This document shows, in pieces, positions 20,198 to 20,607 of a DNA stretch of 29,075 nucleotides. Position 1 is the stretch's first letter, and each line of letters starts with the position of its first letter. Origin of the DNA: a virus. Under the pieces are notes generated by a model that was not told the origin of the DNA, ran no database searches, and worked only from the letters and a program-made list of their open reading frames with translations. The position numbers and the translations under genes are program-made. Where the stretch lies: the IMG/VR virus record IMGVR_UViG_3300007346_000148, positions 1 through 29,075 of that record. One strand, 5' to 3'.

Positions 20198-20235
20198 AAT
20201 AGCAGTAGAGGGAAAATGTAATTATTTACACTGTT

Positions 20236-20350
20236 CCCTTCGTTCATCGGAGAAATAGTTGTGCTTCTCTGACGCAAGTAAGTCGCGGAACGGAACGTTC
20301 ATTCTCTATTCGGAAATAGAGAACGCAAACGACTGAAGGAACGGGAGATT
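20236..20350 (+). ncRNA. Structured leader resembling the glutamine riboswitch (glnA / Downstream-peptide motif)
   Basis: The segment has no open frame but is highly structured. CGTTC (20241-20245) can pair with GAACG (20339-20343) as a closing stem. TCGGAGAA (20247-20254) pairs with TTCTCTGA (20265-20272), and TTCTCTATT (20302-20310) pairs perfectly with AATAGAGAA (20315-20323) over a 4-nt loop. Single-stranded elements CGTTCATC, GACGCAAGTAAGT and GAAGGAACG match my memory of the related glnA and Downstream-peptide RNAs (CGUUCA, ACGGAAGUAGG-type, GAAGGAACG), which bind L-glutamine in cyanobacteria and cyanophages. Those RNAs precede short peptide genes, as here. The assignment is by eye; structure is more certain than ligand. 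If correct, expression of the following peptide responds to cell nitrogen status. Confidence 0.65.
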
Positions 20351-20384
20351 TAAACCTCACCCTAGTATTTCAGGAGTAAATAAA

Positions 20385-20552
20385 ATGAACGCACTTCATT
20401 TGATCAAAAAGCAGATTCAAAAAGCCTCTGCACTTCATGATGCACAAATTCACCACACAGCTTATCGCGGTTGTGAGTTTTGTGTCGGCACCCATGAAGC
20501 AAAGGAAGTTCATGGTACATTTAATTACCGTGGGCATTCCTACACAAAGTGA
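20385..20552 (+). CDS. 55-aa YRG-motif peptide (DUF4278-like) behind the leader
   Basis: The ATG has a strong Shine-Dalgarno, CAGGAG, 9 nt upstream. The peptide opens M-N-A-L-H-L-I-K-K and carries two Y-R-G steps, T-A-Y-R-G-C and F-N-Y-R-G-H-S-Y, the latter ending the protein. The Y-R-G-x-x-Y pattern is that of DUF4278, a family found in cyanobacteria and their phages. Two Cys (C30, C33) form a C-x-x-C pair. The function is unknown. Its position downstream of the leader RNA and before a strong terminator makes a monocistronic, RNA-controlled unit. Confidence 0.75.
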   Translation: MNALHLIKKQIQKASALHDAQIHHTAYRGCEFCVGTHEAKEVHGTFNYRGHSYTK

Positions 20553-20573
20553 TTGAATTATCTGCATAATAAA

Positions 20574-20607
20574 GAGAGGGGCCCTTATCGGAACCCCTCT
20601 TTTTTTT
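20574..20607 (+). terminator. Rho-independent terminator closing the leader-peptide unit
   Basis: AGAGGGG (20575-20581) pairs with CCCCTCT (20594-20600) over 12 nt, followed by seven T. The methyltransferase gene on the other strand ends at 20606, inside the T-run, so the hairpin may also serve that transcript although its T-run on that side is poor. Confidence 0.9.

Follow-up and report, generated by a model that had tools for sequence, protein, structure and literature searches.

The question raised by this locus is what kind of RNA precedes a short ORF with two YRG motifs in a viral genome, and what such an RNA would sense and control. The locus lies in a viral record of 29 kb (29,075 nucleotides, hereafter called the window), in which the leader is surrounded by genes for baseplate and tail fibre proteins, the large and small subunits of ribonucleotide reductase, an HNH endonuclease, a cytosine methyltransferase and thymidylate synthase. 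The order NrdA-HNH-leader-peptide-methylase-ThyA is the same as in cyanophage S-TIM54 (genus Aurunvirus, marine Synechococcus), and for this reason the phage of the window most likely infects a marine picocyanobacterium. In a DNA similarity search, parts of the stretch were found in 433 phage records, nearly all of them cyanophages. The terminator downstream of the ORF is common to the peptide gene and to the convergent methyltransferase gene, and a terminator scan called it on the minus strand.

A preliminary description of this DNA had proposed a glutamine-class riboswitch leader of the glnA/Downstream-peptide kind in front of a small YRG protein, to be checked against Rfam. At curated thresholds, Rfam listed no family for the window. 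When the thresholds were relaxed, RF01739 (glnA RNA, glutamine-I) and RF01704 (Downstream-peptide RNA, glutamine-II) matched the leader with 31.1 and 27.6 bits, below the gathering cut-offs of 35 and 33, respectively. The E-value of the RF01739 match was 7e-5 in a 501-nt search with all Rfam families and 9.9e-7 in the 29-kb record. These were the two best Rfam matches in the leader, every other family giving E >1, and they are clearly more than chance. Viral contigs and isolates yielded 178 distinct leaders, most of which were found by exact core patterns that left hairpins, platform and ORFs unconstrained; the invariance of the core is thus partly by construction. A covariance model (R1), built from 15 compact relatives with the window excluded and most relatives over the RF01739 cut-off, gave a single match in the 29 kb, at 20239-20376, with 85.9 bits and E 7.6e-20. 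Moreover, 11 of 13 compact phage leaders exceeded the RF01739 cut-off (36.0-46.2 bits), and ten match over 86-97 nt.

This result, together with the covariation described below, bears out the glutamine-class leader. As far as its sequence can tell, the leader (20239-20376) belongs, in an elaborated form, to the glutamine-I riboswitches (glnA, RF01739), so that of the double class first proposed only the glnA part stood. Membership of glutamine-II was rejected: the RF01704 cut-off is missed, and in the RF01704 alignment of the window most of the 3' P2 helix after GGAACGG turns into gaps. In the host family, RF01704 exceeded its cut-off in 42 of 61 genomes and RF01739 in 15 of 121. R1 gave zero matches in 60 other genomes of this family and, at that sampling, the nested arrangement therefore looks phage-specific. 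One further genome searched was matched by R1, on a contig probably of phage origin. This contig (G001 contig 3, L238; from the single-cell assembly of Prochlorococcus AG-418-C09) is 189 kb long, carries a phage-type leader and is probably a co-amplified cyanophage genome.

Table 1. Features of the leader and of the downstream gene, with their coordinates in the window.
Feature	Position	Strand	Evidence
P1 5' strand CGUUC, outer aptamer helix	20241-20245	+	invariant in 15 relatives; matches R1
P2a hairpin, 8 bp UCGGAGAA/UUCUCUGA, compact in window	20247-20272	+	sequence; covariation in relatives
CGCAAGUAA, linking strand and E-loop 5' side (AAGUAA)	20273-20281	+	AGUA conservation; crystal-construct motif
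P3 5' strand AGUCG	20281-20285	+	pairs with 20330-20334; compensatory changes in relatives
P4 hairpin GAACG-GAA-CGUUC, within P3	20288-20300	+	sequence; GGAG counts in relatives
Rfam RF01739 match (RF01704 from 20293), below gathering scores	20294-20347	+	relaxed-threshold Rfam search
P2b hairpin, 9 bp, loop CGGA, compact in window	20302-20323	+	covariation
P3 3' strand CGACU	20330-20334	+	compensatory changes in relatives
CUGAA, P3/E-loop 3' side, alternative partner of the Shine-Dalgarno region	20333-20337	+	pairing counts; fold prediction
P1 3' strand GAACG	20339-20343	+	R1 match; relatives
UUCAGGAG, switching strand UUCAG overlapping Shine-Dalgarno AGGAG	20369-20376	+	pairing counts; fold prediction
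55-aa double-YRG peptide, phrog_545, distant DUF4278	20385-20552	+	phrog_545 E 5e-28
Intrinsic terminator AGAGGGG...CCCCTCT followed by 8 T	20575-20607	+	sequence

The stems of the leader are compatible with each other, as first described, but they are five (P1, P2a, P3, P4 and P2b) and not three. P1 closes the junction, P2a follows it directly, and an E-loop, AAGUAA (20276-20281) facing UGAA (20334-20337), lies between P1 and P3, as in the crystallised glutamine-I construct (PMC5393176). The construct reads GGAAGUAAGGCCC...GGGCCUGAAGCAACG (PMC5393176) and its counterpart in the window CGCAAGUAAGUCG...CGACUGAAGGAACG. AGUA is kept in 178/178 leaders, partly owing to the search pattern, and UAAA replaces UGAA in about 30% of relatives. 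P3 encloses a second half-aptamer made of the P4 hairpin and P2b. Covariation backs P2a, P2b, P3 and a CURAA/UUYAG stem to which we return below; P1 and P4 never vary and consequently carry no covariation evidence. In fact, all five aligned pairs of P2a are changed on both sides in relatives, and P3 is compensated (AGACU/AGUCU in L046, GUCAA/UUGAC in L236, AUUCG/CGAAU in L278, which is P-RSM4). P3 is nearly invariant and its support comes from these few divergent leaders, the L010 and L237 types retaining it only with C-A mismatches. Over the 15 compact relatives, the nested structure has 99.7% of its cells paired as compared to 93.2 in shuffled controls, and 7 pairs changed on both sides as compared to 2.0; sliding by a column lowers the pairing to 30-58%.

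The nested arrangement has to be weighed against two independent tandem aptamers (CGUUCA-P2a...GGAACG and CGUUCA-P2b...GGAACG), which would give a steeper response to glutamine. Each half owns a possible P1, P2 and CGCA, the Rfam match in the window is the second half alone, the unliganded fold of the window uses the first local P1, and tandem glnA RNAs have been reported (Weinberg 2010, PMC2864571). However, neither half has a complete E-loop, since AGUA is confined to the first and GAA to the second, and P3, which joins the halves, is compensated in relatives. The Rfam model also favours the nested parse in compact relatives: two RF01739 alignments run from the first-half CGUUCA to the second-half GAAGGAACG, with 38-42 nt inserted in P3. 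Since these matches span both halves, the outer strands can be taken as one glutamine-I aptamer (P1, P2a, E-loop and P3), and we regard the tandem reading as unlikely.

Further down the scale, and improbable in our judgement, is a leader that descends from a glutamine riboswitch but binds a protein or a ligand other than glutamine. The linking strand is altered (CGC for CGG) and there is an extra inner domain, but the changed pair is compensated, G23-C55 of the construct (PMC5393176) being C-G in the window and thereby resembling the long-range C-G pair of glutamine-II, whose ligand is the same; moreover, the downstream genes are of the kind that glutamine riboswitches precede in hosts. The conserved aptamer core gives good grounds to infer that the nested leader senses glutamine, and with it nitrogen status.

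How ligand binding would reach the peptide gene is suggested by the CURAA/UUYAG stem, which pairs the 3' side of P3 and of the E-loop with the strand that overlaps the Shine-Dalgarno sequence. The middle pair of this stem is G-C in 82, A-U in 53, G-U in 38 and A-C in 0 of 176 leaders, and it is difficult to see how else the A-C class would be empty. It is paired in 173 of the 176 as compared to a maximum of 156 in shuffles, which ignore relatedness. In the ligand-free ensemble of the window RNA from 20240, the switch stem has a probability of 0.97-0.99 and the Shine-Dalgarno site is predicted to be hidden; among 15 compact leaders, the window included, this probability is >0.5 in 13. The free fold of the window has -36.2 kcal/mol and the nested aptamer -33.0, that is 3.2 kcal/mol above, in energies that ignore ligand and tertiary contacts. 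In the absence of glutamine, CUGAA would pair with UUCAG (20369-20373), mask the Shine-Dalgarno sequence and keep the peptide off. Once glutamine is bound, the outer P1 as well as P3 and the E-loop would form, CUGAA would be retained in the aptamer core, and the 55-aa YRG peptide would be translated from an accessible Shine-Dalgarno sequence. The ribosome site would therefore be freed by any ligand that makes the aptamer more stable. Anatomy, covariation, family relationship and predicted ligand-free fold are what the analysis demonstrates; glutamine as the ligand, the ON direction and the translational switch are what we infer. The predicted direction fits that reported for both glutamine riboswitch types, in which glutamine binding activates expression (PMC6316151), and Gln-II probably acts by making the ribosome binding site accessible (PMC6698751). 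A point against the model is that, if transcription started further upstream, CUGUUCCCUUC might pair with GAAGGAACGG and compete with P1; in the region 20200-20240, CTGTTCCCTTC lies directly 5' of P1 and is complementary to the same core GAAGGAACGG.

Of the 178 leaders, 118 have a TTGAC/TAnnnT promoter that ends directly upstream, and roughly half have an NtcA box; out of 106 GTAN8TAC boxes, 86 are 52-61 nt 5' of CGTTCA. In host type-2 leaders (L253-L264), an NtcA-type box, GTAGC-N4-GCTAC, stands 18-19 nt 5' of CGTTCA in 12/12, at the likely transcript start. The position of the box suggests repression by NtcA in hosts and possibly activation in phages; NtcA sites are known in cyanophages (PMC3037559). 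A promoter scan of the window gave nothing relevant to the leader, before which both the TTGAC/TAnnnT promoter and the NtcA box are absent, and this leader may be read from upstream. The region 20200-20240 also contains GTAATTATTTAC (GTA-N6-TAC, as compared to GTA-N8-TAC in S-TIM54), perhaps a broken NtcA box.

The 55-aa ORF and the terminator with its 8 T are present where the preliminary description had placed them. Relatives of the peptide at >=80% of its length occur in 371 phage records, all of cyanophages, and the distribution of differences over codon positions indicates coding constraint; for both reasons the ORF is real. In isolates it is annotated as T4-GC 937. YRG is present in 171/171 readable downstream ORFs, twice in 170 of them. 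The window peptide itself gave zero matches at E up to 10 in Pfam, PF14105 (DUF4278) included, and zero matches among the solved structures of the PDB. PF14105 is matched weakly by 14 of 16 close family members (best E 9.2e-5), short phage double-YRG proteins attain 27.8 bits in it (cut-off 25.3), and the matches of the 55-aa family profile are of the DUF4278 type only. The only elements in an AlphaFold model of the peptide (mean pLDDT 70) are a helix and, at the second YRG, a beta hairpin at the C-terminus. A relationship to PirA was weighed and discarded, as PirA is absent from marine picocyanobacteria (PMC8092223).

Host glutamine-II-type leaders precede DUF4278 proteins with two and three YRG motifs, many of them with a TYRGxxYxK end, and the phage locus likely originated from such a host module of riboswitch and DUF4278 gene. 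Interference with the host through binding of glutamine synthetase, in the manner of gifB/IF17, had also been envisaged; this finds no backing, because DUF4278 is the sole match of the peptide family, and this part of IF17 is described as dispensable for IF17 function (PMC6316151); among the family matches there was none to an IF7-like part. Our guess is that the phage carries, in this peptide, its own copy of the DUF4278 proteins that hosts make when nitrogen-replete, and that the peptide tunes host nitrogen metabolism when glutamine is plentiful.

With respect to the known systems, the leader shares with glutamine-I (for example the Synechocystis gifB leader) P1, P2, the E-loop AAGUAA/UGAA, P3 and the compensated long-range pair, the position in front of a DUF4278-type protein and, by prediction, activation. 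It differs in that P3 encloses the second half-aptamer (P4 and P2b), and in that the P2 loops of most relatives are filled by ORFs. The glutamine-II RNAs of marine picocyanobacteria have the same CGUUCA, CGCA and GGAACGG blocks and also precede DUF4278 proteins, but host type-2 leaders lack the AGUA/GAA E-loop and the phage leader lacks the 3' P2 helix; the NtcA box, at the likely transcript start in these hosts (12/12), is 52-61 nt upstream in many phages. The glutamine riboswitch of the methylophage Melnitz shares the marine phage setting and is associated with a tmRNA gene, not with a YRG peptide (PMC9004378). Rfam matches have placed a glnA RNA in cyanophage S-CREM1 (PMC9964418) and a glutamine riboswitch in a cyanophage list (PMC9602691); the accessible portions of both papers give the match only and describe neither anatomy nor switch, nor the family of the downstream peptide, nor ORFs nested in the RNA. 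The S-CREM1 match to RF01739 spans 99 nt, the length expected of the nested form (PMC9964418).

Small ORFs lie within the P2b and/or P2a loops of 162 of the 178 leaders (P2b only in 125, both in 34, P2a only in 3); the window belongs to the 16 with neither. P2b holds an ORF in 159 leaders and P2a in 37. The start codon abuts or lies in the stem, and the ORF usually ends in stem or core. The P2b ORFs are mostly of 53-66 aa (phrog_504, phrog_13397), usually start as CGTTCA-TCCC-ATG and mostly terminate in the core, where TGGGACGCAAACGACTGA reads WDAND-stop; a few already end at the P2b 3' strand or ahead of it. Most P2a ORFs stop 2 nt before CGCA, and the stop is thus in the 3' strand, while five continue into CGCAAGTAA; in the clearest examples the start codon is itself part of the P2a pairing (UCUUAUG/CAUAAGA). 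The stems still covary over 140-230 nt of intervening coding sequence: P2b pair 4 is paired in 157/159 (shuffle maximum 140) and P2a pair 3 in 37/37 (shuffle maximum 32). In both ORF types, differences fall preferentially at third codon positions. The P4 loop is GAG in the ORF-bearing relatives and supplies a Shine-Dalgarno-like sequence for the nested ORF; GGAG is found there in 150 of 159 leaders with a P2b ORF and in 0 of 19 without (Fisher p 4e-19, uncorrected for relatedness). Relatives of the P2b and P2a ORFs occur in 311 and 57 phage records, respectively, and in isolates they are annotated as hypothetical genes, such as T4-GC 430 (P2b) and 429 (P2a). Homology between nested ORF families A and B was considered and not established (17% probability in a profile comparison).

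On the simplest reading, closing P2 and P4 would block the nested ORF, with an effect opposite to that on the peptide. A ribosome terminating in the core could also melt the switch stem. We tentatively propose, as a possibility falling somewhat short of even chances, that the aptamer hairpin loops are gene slots, that glutamine closes P2/P4, shuts the nested ORFs and frees the YRG gene, and that the window is an emptied form. A very improbable alternative is that the window is a decaying copy, its lineage having lost nested ORFs, promoter and NtcA box and being regulated no longer. The nearest isolates, S-TIM5 and S-TIM54, do bear ORFs in both loops, and no promoter match precedes the window leader; however, every core residue and all five helices are intact, as are the switch stem, the Shine-Dalgarno sequence, the ORF and the terminator, both hairpins of the window are long and fully closed, and 15 other leaders are likewise compact. 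A chance resemblance, to which scores below the Rfam cut-offs might point, is refuted by the R1 match and by covariation over the 178 leaders.

The window most probably carries a glutamine-I-type riboswitch variant that controls a DUF4278-like peptide. As a single phage riboswitch it would be modest, and its family is unusual. Glutamine RNAs in cyanophages are already known; for the nested form, its switch and the genes nested in it, no account was found in the searchable literature, outside which most subscription journals lie. We know of no earlier case in which coding genes lie inside an aptamer, the stems being conserved across these genes and their codons serving as aptamer core as well. 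The nested relatives offer a testable case of the same bases being both aptamer and message, and of a single ligand setting two genes oppositely. If the reading is true, marine viruses of a common group monitor the nitrogen status of their hosts by an RNA sensor and answer with a small protein of host derivation. To our knowledge, the DUF4278 proteins of marine picocyanobacteria have no established job, and the phage copies would be a handle on them.

Several leaders deserve separate mention. S-TIM54 (L001, 4082-4470), S-TIM5 (L265, 456-859), P-HM1 (L277) and P-RSM4 (L278), phages that are near to that of the window or resemble it, have ORFs in both hairpins, annotated only as hypothetical proteins. 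In Synechococcus phage S-H68 (L266, 59-650), a 190-aa ORF interrupts P4 and parts the riboswitch halves; it has a GIY-YIG-like look with no Pfam match and is possibly a homing-type insertion. In L026 (about 960-1335), P2b is altered to GUUUAU/AUAAAC, and its loop contains a signal-peptide-like ORF with a terminator-like GGGC...GCCC hairpin downstream of it. In the podovirus P-GSP1 (L276, 701-835), an unannotated ORF related to that of P2a stands between psbA and a high-light-inducible gene; its surroundings contain no glutamine aptamer motifs, and the P2a-type protein thus also occurs outside the riboswitch. Finally, one phage contig (L097) carries, about 7 kb from its glutamine leader, a PhotoRC-II RNA at 1021-1116 (57.1 bits).
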